20,784 bases of DNA from the IMG/VR virus record IMGVR_UViG_3300008113_000570, positions 1-20,784 of that record, one strand, 5' to 3'. The notes beneath the pieces are model-generated. The model saw only the letters and a list, made by a program, of their open reading frames with translations. It was not told the DNA's origin and did not search any database. Source of the stretch: a virus. Below, piece after piece: positions 5,489-20,198 of this stretch (within the stretch, counting starts at the first letter, position 1; the number at the start of each line of letters is the position of its first letter). A program made the translations under genes and the position numbers.

Positions 5489-5530
5489 AAGTCCCTCTCT
5501 TCTAAATATTATTGAAGGGAGGGACTTTTT
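5489..5530 (+). terminator. Rho-independent terminator after mazG-like gene
   Basis: A 14-bp stem (5489-5502 with 5514-5527; one G-U pair, otherwise complementary) closes an 11-base loop TAAATATTATT and is followed by a short T run (5526-5530). It should end transcripts of the replication block. The 3' arm holds GGGAGGG, which is also the Shine-Dalgarno of the gene starting at 5533, and the loop holds a late-promoter octamer. Confidence 0.85.
5501..5508 (+). promoter_or_regulatory. Late-promoter octamer TCTAAATA in terminator loop
   Basis: TCTAAATA resembles the T4-type late promoter TATAAATA, which is centred at -10. A start 6 bases after its last A would fall at 5514, the first base of the terminator's 3' arm, so late RNA would lack the 5' arm and keep GGGAGGG free for translation of the 572-aa gene. 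Confidence 0.5.
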
Positions 5531-5532
5531 CT

Positions 5533-7251
5533 ATGGCAAAATTAAAAATGGGTAGCACCCCAGATTTAGCCAAAGTACATAAAAGTGGAGATCTAAAATA
5601 TTGGCCATCATTTTGGCAAATGGTAAGAGATAAACAACCATTCAAAAAAGGAACGCAAGGGCAAGATGGTGCTGCAGTAATAGGATACAAAACAGCAGCT
5701 GCCCATAAAAAATTTGTTGCGGACATGGCAAAATGTACTACTTCCAGAGAGGTCATTGCATTTTTGAATAAGTATAATACTGAAATGCCCACAGTAGAGG
5801 GTGGTAAAGTTAAGATTACTGAACTCTGGAAAGATAATGTAAAAGAAACTAAGGCATCTAATGCTGCTAAAATTGGAGGTAGAGATACAGAGGTTTATAG
5901 TGAAATATTAGTTCAATTTGCATTAGCATATCAACTTGTATATAATAAGAGAGCAACACATGATGTAGTGGGTGATGGAGATGATTTTAAAACTGAAGTA
6001 TACAATGCACTTAAATCTAGGATTATAACACCAGGTCGTTTTGCTTTTTCAAACACTGCAGTAAGAAAAAATTTAAGAGCATTCTCTAGACAAATTTCAG
6101 ATGGTAATGATACATGGTTAGATAGTGCTTCAGCAGCAGCACAAACACTAGTTGACAAATTAAATATCCCTTCTGATGCTAAAATTTTTAATGATAAAAT
6201 TTTTGGTAATGGATCCCCTGGAGATCCTTATGCAATTTATTTACGTGCTAATACAGGATTGCAACCTGATAAGTGGAACCCTGCAGATATATGGGTCATG
6301 ACCCCTGCAGGAATTAGAGATTTAGTTCATTTAAATAGAAAAACGGCAAATAGAAAAACAGCAAGTGTTGCACTTTTAAATAACTTTCTAATTAATCAAT
6401 TTAAAACAAAAGATATTATTCCTATTTCACTAAAGAAAACTAAAGCAGATCCATCACAAGTTCACTATACTGTTTTGAATAGTAATGAATATATTGAAAG
6501 AATTTCTATTGGCAAAAGTAAAAATCCTACCATTGAATTAACTGGTGGAAACCGTGATATGAAAATTAATTTTACATTAGAGACAATTGAACTGAATAAG
6601 GGTATGACAGCTCGTAGAGCACAAGCAAATTTATTTGGTAATATAGGTAAAGTTAAACCAGGATCTGAGAAGCATATTCGCATTAAATATAATGTAAATA
6701 AGAAGCAACTTGAACTTGAGTATACCCAAACACAAATGCCTTCATTAGCATTAGCAAAAATGGGATCATTGGGATCAAAATCTTTTACCTCTATTATTTC
6801 TGAAACTTCTAAGCAAGGAATTCATGCATTAGATAAAATAAAAGATAGGCATCCTCATTTAGATTTGACTAAAGATGACTACTTCATAAGTCAAAAAGTT
6901 AAATTTACTGATGAGCAATATGATCAAGTTGCTGCATATATGGATGATATTTGGAAAGCAGTTAATGGTGATAATATGCCAGACATGAGAAAGGATAAAT
7001 CTGTAGGTAAAGATATTAATTTATTGAAAGATAAAATGATGTCATCTGAAGTATCATTAGCTATAGCAGGAATACCAGATGATAAAATCAAAAGAAGAGT
7101 AATTCAAAATCTTTATAATGCATGTGCATCAGTTGGATTTGGATCTGGACTTAATAAAGAAGAAAGAGAATTACTGGCTCAAAGTGGAGTAGGTCAAGCA
7201 AACAAATTAAAAGCACAATTTACTGGAGGACTTCATGTTAAAGTCTATTGA
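5533..7251 (+). CDS. 572-aa phage protein of unknown function, possible nuclease-like core
   Basis: A 572-aa protein that I do not recognise with certainty. The start at ATG 5533 is preceded by GGGAGGG (5517-5523) in the terminator's 3' arm; upstream in-frame bases belong to that hairpin. No signal peptide or membrane segment is visible. The N-terminus is basic (MAKLKMGSTPDLAKVHKSGD). Residues around 120-150 form a helix with acidic residues (TEVYSEILVQFALAY), residues 247-255 read DKWNPADIW with Asp252, and PISLKK follows with Lys301 and Lys302. This E … PxD … xxK pattern is reminiscent of PD-(D/E)XK nucleases, with Ser299 in place of the usual acid; this is a hypothesis only. The C-terminal third is helical and charged. 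It overlaps the 69-aa gene by 17 bases. A late promoter in front suggests virion assembly, packaging or a virion-carried role. Confidence 0.8.
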   Translation: MAKLKMGSTPDLAKVHKSGDLKYWPSFWQMVRDKQPFKKGTQGQDGAAVIGYKTAAAHKKFVADMAKCTTSREVIAFLNKYNTEMPTVEGGKVKITELWKDNVKETKASNAAKIGGRDTEVYSEILVQFALAYQLVYNKRATHDVVGDGDDFKTEVYNALKSRIITPGRFAFSNTAVRKNLRAFSRQISDGNDTWLDSASAAAQTLVDKLNIPSDAKIFNDKIFGNGSPGDPYAIYLRANTGLQPDKWNPADIWVMTPAGIRDLVHLNRKTANRKTASVALLNNFLINQFKTKDIIPISLKKTKADPSQVHYTVLNSNEYIERISIGKSKNPTIELTGGNRDMKINFTLETIELNKGMTARRAQANLFGNIGKVKPGSEKHIRIKYNVNKKQLELEYTQTQMPSLALAKMGSLGSKSFTSIISETSKQGIHALDKIKDRHPHLDLTKDDYFISQKVKFTDEQYDQVAAYMDDIWKAVNGDNMPDMRKDKSVGKDINLLKDKMMSSEVSLAIAGIPDDKIKRRVIQNLYNACASVGFGSGLNKEERELLAQSGVGQANKLKAQFTGGLHVKVY

Positions 7252-11291: not shown

Positions 11292-11299
11292 GATAAATA
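11292..11299 (+). promoter_or_regulatory. Late-promoter octamer GATAAATA
   Basis: GATAAATA in the gap between the 450-aa gene and the 59-aa gene. A start 6 bases past the octamer falls at 11305, at the very end of the 5' arm of the adjacent hairpin, so late RNA would not fold over the ribosome site of the 59-aa gene. Confidence 0.6.
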
Positions 11300-11322
11300 C
11301 CTATACCCTTTAGTATAGGTAT
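11297..11322 (+). promoter_or_regulatory. Ribosome-site-covering hairpin before the 59-aa gene
   Basis: A perfect 10-bp stem ATACCTATAC (11297-11306) with GTATAGGTAT (11313-11322) and a 6-base loop. The 3' arm holds TATAGG, the only plausible Shine-Dalgarno for ATG 11327. There is no T run, so this is a translation-blocking hairpin rather than a terminator (inference). Confidence 0.6.
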
Positions 11323-11326
11323 CATC

Positions 11327-11506
11327 ATGTCGGCACTAATCGCATGGGCTTTTGCTAACCAGGCTCTTATCGCAACTGTTCTTTTTGCAGTTTCGGAAGC
11401 ACTTGGAGCAAACCCAAAGGTAAAATCAAACGGTATTCTTTCCCTAGTTCTTATGCAAGTCCAAGCACAGCTTAAGAATAAAGGGGCAAAAGATCTAACC
11501 CCTTGA
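11327..11506 (+). CDS. 59-aa hydrophobic protein, holin-like candidate
   Basis: A 59-aa protein beginning MSALIAWAFANQALIATVL. Residues about 3-22 form one hydrophobic helix, followed by a polar turn (EALGANPKVKSNG), a second mildly hydrophobic stretch (ILSLVLMQVQAQL) and a polar end KNKGAKDLTP. It could be a small inner-membrane protein; a holin or antiholin role is possible but not shown, and I recognise no family. It sits alone between its own late promoter with hairpin and a strong terminator, so it is an independent late cassette. The start is fixed by the spacing after the hairpin; no other in-frame ATG exists nearby. Confidence 0.75.
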   Translation: MSALIAWAFANQALIATVLFAVSEALGANPKVKSNGILSLVLMQVQAQLKNKGAKDLTP

Positions 11507-16726: not shown

Positions 16727-17869
16727 ATGGTAACTGGAATGACGGTTTTTAATACCAAAGAAGTAAACACCAAGAAGCAACCAATGTTTTTTGGTGCTCC
16801 TTTGGGAGTACAACGTTATGATGGATCTAAGTATCCTATTTTTGAAAGATTGACCCAACAACAGTTAGGTTATTTTTGGAGACCTGAAGAGGTCTCCCTC
16901 CAAAAGGATCGTGCAGATTATGCACAATTGAGTGAGGAACAAAAGCATATCTTTACTAGTAACTTGAAGTATCAGATTATGCTTGATAGTGTTCAAGGTC
17001 GTGGTCCTGGGATGGCATTTATTCCATATTGTTCTTTGCCTGAGTTGGAAGCAGCGATGACTGCCTGGGGATTTATGGAAATGATACATTCAAGATCTTA
17101 TACTTATATAATTAAGAATGTATATTCAAATCCATCTGAAGTATTTGATACAATTCTATCAGATAATAATATTTTAGAAAGGGCAAAAACTGTTACTGAA
17201 GCATACGATGAATTTGTTAATGCCGCTCAAATGTACGGTACTTCAAATGATTGGAAGTTTGCCCAGGAAGGAGTACCTAATGCACAGGAGACTTTGTATG
17301 AACTTAAAAGAAAACTTTATCGTGCAGTTGCGAACGTTAACATTCTGGAAGGGATTCGTTTCTATGTTAGCTTCGCTTGCTCTTTTGCATTTGGTGAACT
17401 CAAGCTTATGGAAGGATCTGCGAAAATAATTTCTTTGATTGCTAGAGATGAAAGTCAGCATTTAGTGCTAACACAAAATATTCTAAATAAATGGAAGGAA
17501 GGTGATGATCCTGACATGCTTCAAATTGCACAGGAAGAAGAAGAGAATGTTTATGAAATGTTCAGAAGAACTGTTGATGAAGAGAAGCGTTGGGCAGATT
17601 ATCTATTTCAGAAAGGGTCTATGATTGGTTTGAATGACAAACTTCTCGGACAATATGTAGAATGGATTGCAAATCGCCGTCTTAAATCCATTGGATTGAA
17701 GGCAATTTATAATATTCCTGCCAATAATAACCCGCTTCCATGGACCGAGCATTCGATTAATTCTAAATCTATGCAGGCAGCACCACAAGAAACTGAGATT
17801 GAATCATATGTGATTGGTGGTATTAAACAAGATGTAACAACTGATACTTTTGCAGGATTTAAACTATGA
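16727..17869 (+). CDS. nrdB: Ribonucleotide reductase class Ia small subunit NrdB
   Basis: A 380-aa beta subunit that holds the di-iron centre and the stable tyrosyl radical. Ligands by comparison with E. coli: Asp87 (LDSVQG), Glu118 and His121 (MEMIHSRSY), Glu208 (ILEGIRFY), Glu242 and His245 (RDESQH); the radical tyrosine is Tyr125. ATG 16727 has AAGGAGA 7 bases upstream and is 12 bases after the nrdA stop; an ATG four codons in (16739) would also be possible. The C-terminal end TTDTFAGFKL is the part that would dock on NrdA. Its stop overlaps the lysozyme start as ATGA. All ligands are present, so the enzyme should be active. Confidence 0.96.
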   Translation: MVTGMTVFNTKEVNTKKQPMFFGAPLGVQRYDGSKYPIFERLTQQQLGYFWRPEEVSLQKDRADYAQLSEEQKHIFTSNLKYQIMLDSVQGRGPGMAFIPYCSLPELEAAMTAWGFMEMIHSRSYTYIIKNVYSNPSEVFDTILSDNNILERAKTVTEAYDEFVNAAQMYGTSNDWKFAQEGVPNAQETLYELKRKLYRAVANVNILEGIRFYVSFACSFAFGELKLMEGSAKIISLIARDESQHLVLTQNILNKWKEGDDPDMLQIAQEEEENVYEMFRRTVDEEKRWADYLFQKGSMIGLNDKLLGQYVEWIANRRLKSIGLKAIYNIPANNNPLPWTEHSINSKSMQAAPQETEIESYVIGGIKQDVTTDTFAGFKL

Positions 17870-18588
17870 CCGTACCAGCACCAGGACTTTCCCTTATTAA
17901 AGAATTTGAGGGATGCAGACTTACAGCTTATCCTGATCCACTATCAGGAGGTAAGCCTTATACATGCGGTTGGGGATCTACTCGTAAGAAGGATGGATCT
18001 CCTTTCGTACTAGGAGAAAAGATCACGCAACAGTATGCTGATGATCTTCTAGTGGAAGAATGTGAAAAGCATTTTCTTCCAGCACTTAAAAAAATTCCAC
18101 ACTGGGCAGAGATGTCACCTGAACAACAGGGTGCCATTTTGTCGTTTGCATATAATCTAGGAGCAGGATTTGTTGGTGATCGTGCCAACTTTAACTCTAT
18201 TAATACCGCTCTAGAATCGAAAGCAAACTGGTCCAAGGTTCCCGAAGCACTCTACAAGTATCGTAACCCAGGAACGTCCGTAGAGGCGGGTCTGGCACGT
18301 CGTAGGACCGCTGAAGGGAACATGTGGAAGAAGGGTATGGGGGGTTCCTCAGCACCCGCTACAATGTCAACTACAACAGAGGTAAGTAAAATGTCTAAGG
18401 TTCTAATTAACTTCTTCAAATTTTATGATGAAAATAATGCGAACCATGTTGCAGGCGTAGCACTGCTAGAAGCAGCTATTCCTGAGCATCTACAACCAAA
18501 CTCACCTTGGGTCGTCACCTATCGTGGTGGTAATGCCGATGGTGGTAAACCAGATTTACATGCTTTCTTTTGCTGGTGGAGCAACTGA
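17866..18588 (+). CDS. GH24 lysozyme, fused to the N-terminal part of a peptidase
   Basis: A 240-aa muramidase. Residues 1-160 match phage GH24 lysozymes: E15 and D24 in KEFEGCRLTAYPD (the same spacing as T4 E11/D20) and T33 in YTCGWGS complete the catalytic triad. It would cleave host peptidoglycan at lysis. No signal peptide is visible, so a holin would be needed. A linker (GGSSAPATMSTTTEVSK, about 159-175) leads to a second module beginning MSKVLINFFKFYDENN at residue 176, with its own ATG (18391) and an AGAGG ribosome site, of a kind I associate with phage peptidase N-termini. The frame then stops at 18588, while the C39-like peptidase continues in the +1 frame. The start overlaps the nrdB stop as ATGA. 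Confidence 0.85.
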   Translation: MTVPAPGLSLIKEFEGCRLTAYPDPLSGGKPYTCGWGSTRKKDGSPFVLGEKITQQYADDLLVEECEKHFLPALKKIPHWAEMSPEQQGAILSFAYNLGAGFVGDRANFNSINTALESKANWSKVPEALYKYRNPGTSVEAGLARRRTAEGNMWKKGMGGSSAPATMSTTTEVSKMSKVLINFFKFYDENNANHVAGVALLEAAIPEHLQPNSPWVVTYRGGNADGGKPDLHAFFCWWSN

Positions 18589-19147
18589 TGCTGCTTGGAT
18601 TGAAAAGTTTCGTGCCAAACCACCCATTCCACCTATTCTTGCAGTACCATACTTCAATCAGGTTGACAACTACAGAGACGCACATAGAACATGCAACAGT
18701 TCCTCTTGTGCTATGTGTCTAGAGTTCCTTAAGCCTGGAACATTAAAAGGTGATAAAGGTGATGATGCATACGTTACGAAAGTATTTGCGATTGGTGACA
18801 CTACTGACCATGCGGTTCAGACGAAGGTTCTTGCGTCGTATGGTGTCAAGTCCCATTTCTCATACAATCTTTCTTTTGCTGATCTGGACAAGTCCCTTGC
18901 TGCTGGCAAGCCCGTGGTTATTGGCATTCTCCACAGGGGTTCTCTTTCTGCTCCTACTGGTGGACACATGTGTGTAGTCATCGGTAAGAAGGGTGATGGA
19001 TATGTTGTGAATGATCCATATGGTTCATGCAACGATGGTTACACTGGTCCTGTAACTAACGGTAAAGGTACTGTCTATAGCAAGGCAATGCTCAAAGCAC
19101 GTTGGTGTCCTGGTGGCAACGATGGCTGGGGTCGTATCTTCGACTGA
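18560..19147 (+). CDS. C39-like cysteine peptidase, probably the C-terminal half of a split enzyme
   Basis: A 195-aa reading frame carrying a papain-like C39 fold: Cys45 in HRTCNSSSCAM, His136 in GGHMCVVIG and Asp152 in VVNDPYG form a likely catalytic triad. It would cleave a peptide, most probably peptidoglycan cross-links (inference). The only reasonable ATG near the domain is 18560, inside the lysozyme frame's end and without a good ribosome site; GTG 18524 and ATGs 18533 and 18539 are alternatives. Removing one T from the TTTT at 18568-18571 would join the two frames into one 426-aa lysozyme-peptidase. The domain itself is intact. Whether it is translated separately, by +1 frameshifting, or is a broken gene cannot be decided here. 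Confidence 0.8.
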   Translation: MLSFAGGATDAAWIEKFRAKPPIPPILAVPYFNQVDNYRDAHRTCNSSSCAMCLEFLKPGTLKGDKGDDAYVTKVFAIGDTTDHAVQTKVLASYGVKSHFSYNLSFADLDKSLAAGKPVVIGILHRGSLSAPTGGHMCVVIGKKGDGYVVNDPYGSCNDGYTGPVTNGKGTVYSKAMLKARWCPGGNDGWGRIFD

Positions 19148-19579: not shown

Positions 19580-19738
19580 ATGCTTACAGAACCAGTCCAT
19601 CACATCTATGATAAAGATAACCATGTTATCGCATATAATTTAACTACAGAGGAGATGCACAAAAAAATTAATCAAATTGACGAGTATATAGAAATTCTGA
19701 CTTTAGAACCGCCAAATTACAGGGACGCAAGTTACTGA
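19580..19738 (+). CDS. 52-aa cyanophage hypothetical protein
   Basis: A 52-aa acidic protein beginning MLTEPVHHIYDKDNHVIA and ending RDASY; I have an impression of similar small cyanophage proteins with the N-terminal TEPV…HIY and C-terminal ASY pattern, but no function. AGGAGG lies three bases before ATG 19580, a strong but tightly spaced ribosome site. It follows a late octamer and ends right at the next late octamer and terminator, so it is probably a single-gene late unit. Confidence 0.7.
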   Translation: MLTEPVHHIYDKDNHVIAYNLTTEEMHKKINQIDEYIEILTLEPPNYRDASY

Positions 19739-19745
19739 CTAAATA
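19738..19745 (+). promoter_or_regulatory. Late-promoter octamer ACTAAATA at a terminator
   Basis: ACTAAATA starts on the last base of the 52-aa gene's stop. The predicted start near 19751 lies at the first base of the hairpin loop, so late RNA keeps GGAGG but not the 5' arm. Confidence 0.55.
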
Positions 19746-19765
19746 CCTCCATACGGAGGTTTTTT
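19745..19765 (+). terminator. Compact terminator whose 3' arm is the next ribosome site
   Basis: Stem ACCTCC (19745-19750) with GGAGGT (19755-19760), loop ATAC, and T run 19760-19765. GGAGG (19755-19759) is also the Shine-Dalgarno of the gene at 19767, seven bases away. It should stop read-through RNA. Confidence 0.85.
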
Positions 19766-19766
19766 A

Positions 19767-20198
19767 ATGGGCAGTTATGAAAATCCTTGGATGTATAATT
19801 CAGAAGTTTTTGAATCAGATCACATTCAAGATTATTTTGGTTTTGTTTATCATATTCACTGCCGTTCAACTGGCAGGTCTTATATTGGTAGAAAATATTT
19901 CTGGAGTTTCAAGACACCGAAGGGAAAATCTAGAAAAGTTAAATCAGAATCTGATTGGAAAAAGTATTACGGATCCTGCCCCGAACTCAAATCCGATATT
20001 AACCTTTGGGGAAAAACATCCTGCGACAGAAGAATACTTAGCCTTCATAAAACAAAGGGACAATGCAACTTTGAAGAAACAAAACAACTCTTCTTGAATA
20101 ATGTTTTGACTGAAGCCTTGACAGACGGCACCCCTGCCTACTATAATTCCAACATCCTAGGCAGATACATGCGTAAGGATTACTTCCACGGGGCTTGA
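19767..20198 (+). CDS. GIY-YIG nuclease-like protein, 143 aa
   Basis: A 143-aa protein with a GIY-YIG-type core: G25-F-V-Y28 (the GIY variant), Y39-I-G41 (the YIG) followed by R42 in SYIGRKYF, and a conserved acidic residue E103 or E104 in NFEETKQLF. These are the catalytic elements of this nuclease fold, which in T4-like phages occurs in Seg homing endonucleases and I-TevI. Here no DNA-binding (NUMOD-type) C-terminal domain follows; the protein ends shortly after the core. It may nick phage or host DNA. ATG 19767 follows a ribosome site in the terminator's 3' arm. The stop TGA is embedded in the -35 box (20195-20200) of the next promoter. Confidence 0.75.
   Translation: MGSYENPWMYNSEVFESDHIQDYFGFVYHIHCRSTGRSYIGRKYFWSFKTPKGKSRKVKSESDWKKYYGSCPELKSDINLWGKTSCDRRILSLHKTKGQCNFEETKQLFLNNVLTEALTDGTPAYYNSNILGRYMRKDYFHGA
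20118..20147 (+). promoter_or_regulatory. Perfect-hexamer sigma70 promoter (TTGACA, TATAAT)
   Basis: TTGACA at 20118-20123, 18 bases, TATAAT at 20142-20147: both hexamers match the consensus. It lies in the last part of the nuclease gene and would start near 20154, reading into the 55-aa gene and the tRNA. Confidence 0.6.

Follow-up and report, generated by a model that had tools for sequence, protein, structure and literature searches.

The promoter-early stem-loop (PeSL) of T4-like phages is said to be a promoter fused to a terminator stem-loop, which serves as a joint for the swapping of neighbouring genes. Gene exchange by PeSL cassettes is reported in PMC4503421. Stem-loops are also known to sequester ribosome sites, and passages of PMC3014915 and PMC2988022 describe T4 e, soc, 49, I-TevI and segB, together with mobE of phage Aeh1, as working in this way; the former names four T4 genes as regulated by such structures. 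The T4 late octamer is placed at positions -13 to -6 and the Aeh1 late motif is given as CTAAATA in PMC1524935, and PMC2984593 gives the late motif of S-PM2 as NATAAATA. No description of a composite late promoter, terminator and ribosome site in cyanophages was found in the open-licence literature, an absence that is weak evidence.

The DNA analysed here, referred to as the window, is a 20,784-nucleotide fragment of a T4-like cyanomyovirus. It is 99.96% identical to a 176,692-base IMG/VR record (G001) in its first 18.6 kb and 99.8% identical in the remainder, and the nearest of the isolates listed for it is S-CREM1. At the junction 18570/18571 the window is missing 98 bases that are present in G001, and two overlapping open reading frames at 17866-19147 look like a single lysozyme/peptidase gene, the S-CREM1 annotation having one lysozyme CDS at the matching place. 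The nrdA/nrdB genes lie upstream of segE on the same strand, and the region around the element is made up as follows.

19580..19738, + strand: 52-aa open reading frame, with a TGA stop (19736-19738) that shares one base with the octamer
19738..19745, + strand: late-promoter octamer ACTAAATA (motif [AC]TAAATA), with CTAAATA, a T4-type late motif, at 19739-19745
19745..19750, + strand: 5' arm ACCTCC, the anti-Shine-Dalgarno, at -6 to -1
19751..19754, + strand: loop ATAC, with the predicted late +1 at 19751 by the T4 rule
19755..19760, + strand: 3' arm GGAGGT, containing the Shine-Dalgarno GGAGG (19755-19759), 7 nt ahead of the ATG
19760..19765, + strand: T6 run, the U-tract of what is probably an intrinsic terminator and also the spacer between Shine-Dalgarno and ATG
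19767..20198, + strand: SegE-type GIY-YIG endonuclease gene, 143 aa (phrog_447; PF19835, E 1.2e-51)

The 32 bases at 19738-19769 thus run ACTAAATA, CCTCC, ATAC, GGAGG, TTTTTT, A and ATG, with the single A separating the T6 run from the segE start at 19767, and every part that the first-pass annotation had claimed for this composite is present and exactly placed. The octamer, of the T4 late type, stands directly upstream of segE; its first A doubles as the final base of the 52-aa frame's TGA stop, and the stem begins with its last A, which forms the outer pair with the first T of the T-run. The resulting 6-bp hairpin has a free energy of -9.8 kcal/mol, against -4.2 +/- 1.7 for shuffled sequences (0 of 200 as good), and in the folded read-through RNA GGAGG is paired with CCTCC. 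Since the octamer occupies -13 to -6 by the T4 rule, +1 falls on 19751, the first base of the loop, as had been predicted. The 6-bp G+C stem, four-base loop and T6 resemble an intrinsic (Rho-independent) terminator, and the hairpin and U-run probably form one. The element differs from an ordinary terminator in that its 3' arm is the ribosome site, in agreement with the double role proposed for GGAGG, and in that a promoter start is predicted inside its loop.

The gene behind the element matches Pfam SegE_GIY-YIG (PF19835) over residues 8-130 and in this is like the free-standing SegE/GIY-YIG endonucleases; it differs in that the cyanophage gene is widespread, in several phages near nrdB and tRNA genes, and its homing is putative. 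The PHROG name for phrog_447, 'NAD synthetase', is contradicted by the domain match and was rejected; the same wrong name is carried by many GenBank records of this SegE-type protein.

It is likely, and we hold this with good confidence, that 19738-19769 is explained by a switch for late-only expression, so that segE is probably readable only from late-started RNA. Early or middle RNA polymerase arriving from upstream, from nrdA/nrdB and on, would transcribe the entire hairpin, which with its U-tract would end most of the early and middle RNA. On RNA that reads through, the Shine-Dalgarno would be paired with the anti-Shine-Dalgarno and hence the endonuclease would not be made early. Late in infection a phage sigma factor of the gp55 type would use CTAAATA and the RNA would begin in the loop, a few bases ahead of a free GGAGG; without the 5' arm, neither the terminator nor the sequestering stem could form. 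A single motif would be able to do all three jobs, since octamer and +1 are separated by five bases, just enough for a five-base anti-Shine-Dalgarno. What we infer from this arrangement is that the RNA starts late, that the hairpin terminates transcription and that translation is affected. If true, the switch would show how phages whose early and late transcription overlap hold DNA-cutting enzymes off until late, would add a layer of RNA termination unseen in the T4 leaders examined, and would provide a short motif by which late-only genes could be found.

The strength of such a switch can be expressed as a gain, which is the cost of opening the ribosome site (from 14 nt before the start to 5 nt into the gene) in a long RNA compared with an RNA beginning 6 nt past the octamer. 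For the window leader the gain is borderline when compared with shuffles of that leader (p = 0.06), and opening on the predicted late RNA still costs 8.0 kcal/mol. The octamer is found at 83 of 95 SegE orthologues, and in these leaders the gain has a mean of 4.80 kcal/mol against 1.83 when shuffled (p<=0.05 in 40 of 83). Among 31 SegE leaders, exchange of the 5' parts reduced the gain from 5.55 to 2.57, about half; these values, unlike those for the 83 leaders, are biased upward through the retention of the best-scoring leader per cluster. Of the 80 SegE loci, L126 and L151 were omitted for having too little upstream DNA. The leaders comprise several unrelated designs with a common logic, including the following.

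ACCTCC/GGAGGT with T6 (the window)
CCTCTAA/TTAGAGG with T6 or TTATTTA
ATCAACCTTC/GAAGGTTGAT, with the octamer inside the loop (ACG-2014d)
ATAGCTCAT, which pairs with the very start codon (ATGAGYTAT)

Among 16 named cyanophages, nine have no octamer-led segE start, and none has the pattern TAAATACC-N-GGTTTTT, which proved too narrow as a family pattern since many members read GGTATTT.

The strongest family, with the most regular form of the element, is that of the RusA-like resolvase gene (phrog_244; L294 7744-7778, L714 and L633-L712). The octamer is present at 61 of 80 RusA-like loci and absent at 19, giving 37 distinct leaders in which the gain has a mean of 9.4 against 1.45 for shuffles (p<=0.05 in 30). 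A T-run follows in 33 of the 37, the base next after the octamer pairs downstream in all of them, and in some members the stem extends into the octamer (AAATACCCC/GGGGTATTT). Alignment of the stems revealed 96.1% of cells paired and 20 cells changed on both sides, compared with 4.8 in shuffles; sliding the alignment by one column dropped pairing to 62%. In most of the close relatives sampled, S-PM2 among them, the rusA-like gene is preceded by the same element with a covarying stem and T-run. At the six RusA loci fetched from named phages, octamer and hairpin are found only in S-PM2 and S-CREM2. The S-PM2 element (leader L714) is GATAAATACCTCCATATGGAGGTTTTTTATT, with hairpin loop and T-run, and lies ahead of S-PM2p152, so that a candidate cyanophage sequence motif, tied to a mechanism demonstrated in T4, is present in a laboratory isolate.

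A covariance search of the kind proposed by the first-pass annotation was made with a model, R1, built from the RusA leaders, the window and S-CREM1 and containing no T4 sequence. In T4, at E<=1, the model matched only gene 49 (E 0.003), I-TevI (0.027) and e (0.17), three of the four genes named in PMC3014915. Among the 13 genomes and contigs surveyed, its only strong match outside the training families was the baseplate-wedge gene of G014 (E 0.0005), and of 16 named cyanophages three had matches at E<=1, including the training member S-CREM1. When the 27 octamer genes of T4 were ranked by the opening measure, I-TevI came first, 49 second and e fourth, with ranks 3 and 5 taken by open reading frames at 45612 and 71918, which we take to be I-TevII and SegB. 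The gain for the gene that we take from its protein to be soc is only 2.6, which is low for a documented case.

The 19738-19769 element thus belongs, by its design, with the T4 late-gene switches of e, 49 and I-TevI, a link absent from the earlier interpretation. With the sequestering leaders of e, 49, I-TevI, segB and Aeh1 mobE it has in common the late octamer, a hairpin 5' arm adjoining it, a Shine-Dalgarno in the 3' arm, an ATG close behind and nucleases among the targets; late RNA without the 5' arm is a further common property, predicted in the case of the cyanophage element. These parts, their conservation and covariation and the homology of design with the T4 genes can be read directly from the aligned DNA. 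The three T4 leaders shown lack a run of at least five T behind the stem. In the cyanophage element T6 stands there, and this U-run, which makes the hairpin a probable terminator, is what sets it apart from T4. The cyanophage motif also differs in often being CTAAATA.

A survey of 2.04 Mb of cyanophage DNA in 13 genomes or contigs (with simple ORF calling, and with G003 and the window omitted as duplicates of G001) shows how general the arrangement is. The motif [AC]TAAATA occurs 405 times at 10-50 nt ahead of starts, against 20.5 expected, an enrichment of about 20-fold, and mostly 20-25 nt from the start. TTAAATA (28 against 13.1) and GTAAATA (17 against 10.4), together 45 against 23.5, are not comparably enriched, and CTAAATA is therefore one of the two variants in which the cyanophage late motif occurs. 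What is non-random about it is position ahead of starts rather than frequency, the window having 6 copies against 5.4 expected, neither rarer nor commoner than chance. A gain of at least 5 kcal/mol is reached by 41 of 380 octamer genes compared with 100 of 2000 genes without the motif, so that a strong switch attends only about one in ten late-motif genes, and in the middle of the distribution octamer genes equal the background (Mann-Whitney P = 0.55), the median octamer gene being without a switch. Over the same 380 genes, pairing with the ribosome site exceeds the background for bases up to 5 nt past the octamer and falls below it from 7 nt on, with a difference of differences of 0.046 (bootstrap P = 0.001). 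From the upper tail and this result together it follows that on average there is a boundary at the predicted start, which is carried by a minority of genes.

Forty of the 41 strong-switch genes were scanned against PHROG, one being omitted for crossing a piece boundary. Eleven encode nucleases (four SegE, two other homing endonucleases, two HNH, two RusA-like and one endonuclease VII) compared with 2 of 40 weak-switch genes sampled at random out of 306, counts that are not independent since families recur between genomes. Two further strong-switch genes encode helicases, which we take to be of the UvsW type. Switch genes showed no significant preference for positions without late genes upstream (28 of 48 against 138 of 301 at a gain of at least 4, P = 0.07). 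An endonuclease VII gene, a relative of T4 gene 49, at G006 129856 (L256:767-1345, minus strand) of a cyanophage contig has a strong switch whose octamer lies in the hairpin loop.

The first-pass annotation had further held that, in the window's three gaps that pair an octamer with a hairpin, the late start falls no earlier than the end of the 5' arm. The other two copies are as follows.

5489..5535, + strand: second element, a 14-bp hairpin (5489-5502/5514-5527) with TCTAAATA at 5501-5508, a T-run and an ATG at 5533
11292..11329, + strand: third element, GATAAATA at 11292-11299, a 10-bp hairpin (11297-11306/11313-11322) and the ATG at 11327 of a 59-aa frame

In the second element the octamer extends from the 5' arm into the loop and +1 is predicted at 5514; its ATG opens a 572-aa phrog_19894 gene, and the hairpin is kept with altered arms in L318-L320 and not in more distant relatives. 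The third has no T-run, and its predicted +1 at 11305 lies ahead of the 5' arm's end, leaving two of ten arm bases. The proposed geometry thus fits two of the three copies and is narrowly missed by the one at 11292.

Across the genomes, a terminator-like hairpin ends 4-22 nt before the start of 36 of 2464 genes, and 19 of these have a late motif no more than 70 nt away, compared with 446 of the 2464 genes overall. At the 19, the predicted start falls in the 5' arm in eight, the loop in four, the 3' arm in three, before the hairpin in three and after it in one; 15 starts within the hairpin are no better than the 12.8 given by random pairing (P = 0.20). With this result and the median gene lacking a switch, a fixed geometry of start and terminator was rejected as a general law of late genes, whilst the average boundary and the 37 RusA-type leaders uphold it in part. 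The composite reading itself is supported by the orthologue leaders, covariation, the T4 control and the T-run between Shine-Dalgarno and ATG, which occurs in 7 of 13 switch genes, as against 3 of the 77 other octamer genes and 26 of the 551 genes in the background, and is specific to switch genes among those compared; its generality is only partly borne out. The T-run is kept in S-CREM2, Syn30 and P-RSM4 although the 3' arm there is no Shine-Dalgarno. Termination may be dispensable, because S-CREM1, L143, L145 and L027/L091 have the same hairpin without a T-run, and we read terminator and Shine-Dalgarno hairpin as two functions that are often but not always together. A mirror form is seen in S-CREM2 (L719, upstream of position 401), with a purine 5' arm, pyrimidine 3' arm, T7 and ATG, as a terminator without a Shine-Dalgarno in the stem. 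Terminator hairpins also lie directly ahead of starts in Bellamy (~185087), S-SM2 (~168133) and ACG-2014d (~161544), where sigma-70-like promoters seem to abut, the same design with an early promoter.

That terminator, late promoter and ribosome site overlap only through the density of the genome, as an ordinary compact boundary with no early/late switching, would agree with the loose terminator geometry, with most octamer genes having no switch, and with the upstream stop overlapping the octamer in 86 of 339 octamer genes without a switch. It is nonetheless an unlikely account, given the specific complementarity in orthologues, the compensatory changes, the exact recovery of three documented T4 switch genes and the concentration of T-runs at hairpin-borne Shine-Dalgarno sequences of octamer genes. 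More improbable still is an attenuator coupled to translation, in which a ribosome finishing the 52-aa frame would cover the 5' arm, open the hairpin and couple segE, the late promoter being secondary. The footprint of a ribosome reaches 7 nt past the stop codon, where the 5' arm begins, and homologous small frames keep the same spacing to the element. The overlap of stop and octamer is, however, about as common without a switch (the 86 of 339) as with one (12 of 41), for which reason it was rejected as a marker of ribosome coupling, and in S-PM2 the element comes after nrdB with a gap. An operator, in which the inverted repeat would bind SegE and repress its own late promoter, as I-TevI is described in PMC2988022 to bind an operator overlapping its own late promoter, is hardly credible with the same element ahead of an unrelated resolvase gene and a baseplate-wedge gene and with a stem that changes in sequence and keeps its pairing.

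Alongside the late-only switch, the element may have a role in gene exchange. The 52-aa gene followed by the element is found at eight distinct loci, five of which go on to segE and three to rusA. Between L068 and L294 the upstream 150 nt are 83% identical, the element 100% (an exact run of 38 bases) and the downstream 150 nt 45% (47% when shuffled), which is the pattern that exchange at the element would leave. With PeSL it would share the combination of promoter and terminator stem-loop acting as a joint, with the L068/L294 pair as an apparent cassette exchange. It differs in that the promoter motif at 19738-19769 is a late octamer and not the early, sigma-70-like promoter of PeSL, and in that the Shine-Dalgarno is part of the stem. 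It is possible, although we put this forward tentatively and as somewhat doubtful, that a portable cassette of late promoter, terminator and ribosome site is the late counterpart of PeSL and a crossover point for genes downstream of nrdB in T4-like cyanophages. If so, a gene landing behind it would be insulated from early transcription and translation and be on late, which would explain why nucleases that might do harm if made early (SegE, RusA-like, HNH and endonuclease VII) are behind switches, and the modular shuffling of late genes would become testable. In a first composite scan, matches outside T4-like phages were on inspection mostly due to chance. Among the matches listed in the composite scans of viral contigs, 31 of 107 distinct sites had a stem of at least 5 and a frame of at least 50 aa, against 9 of 111 in the control.
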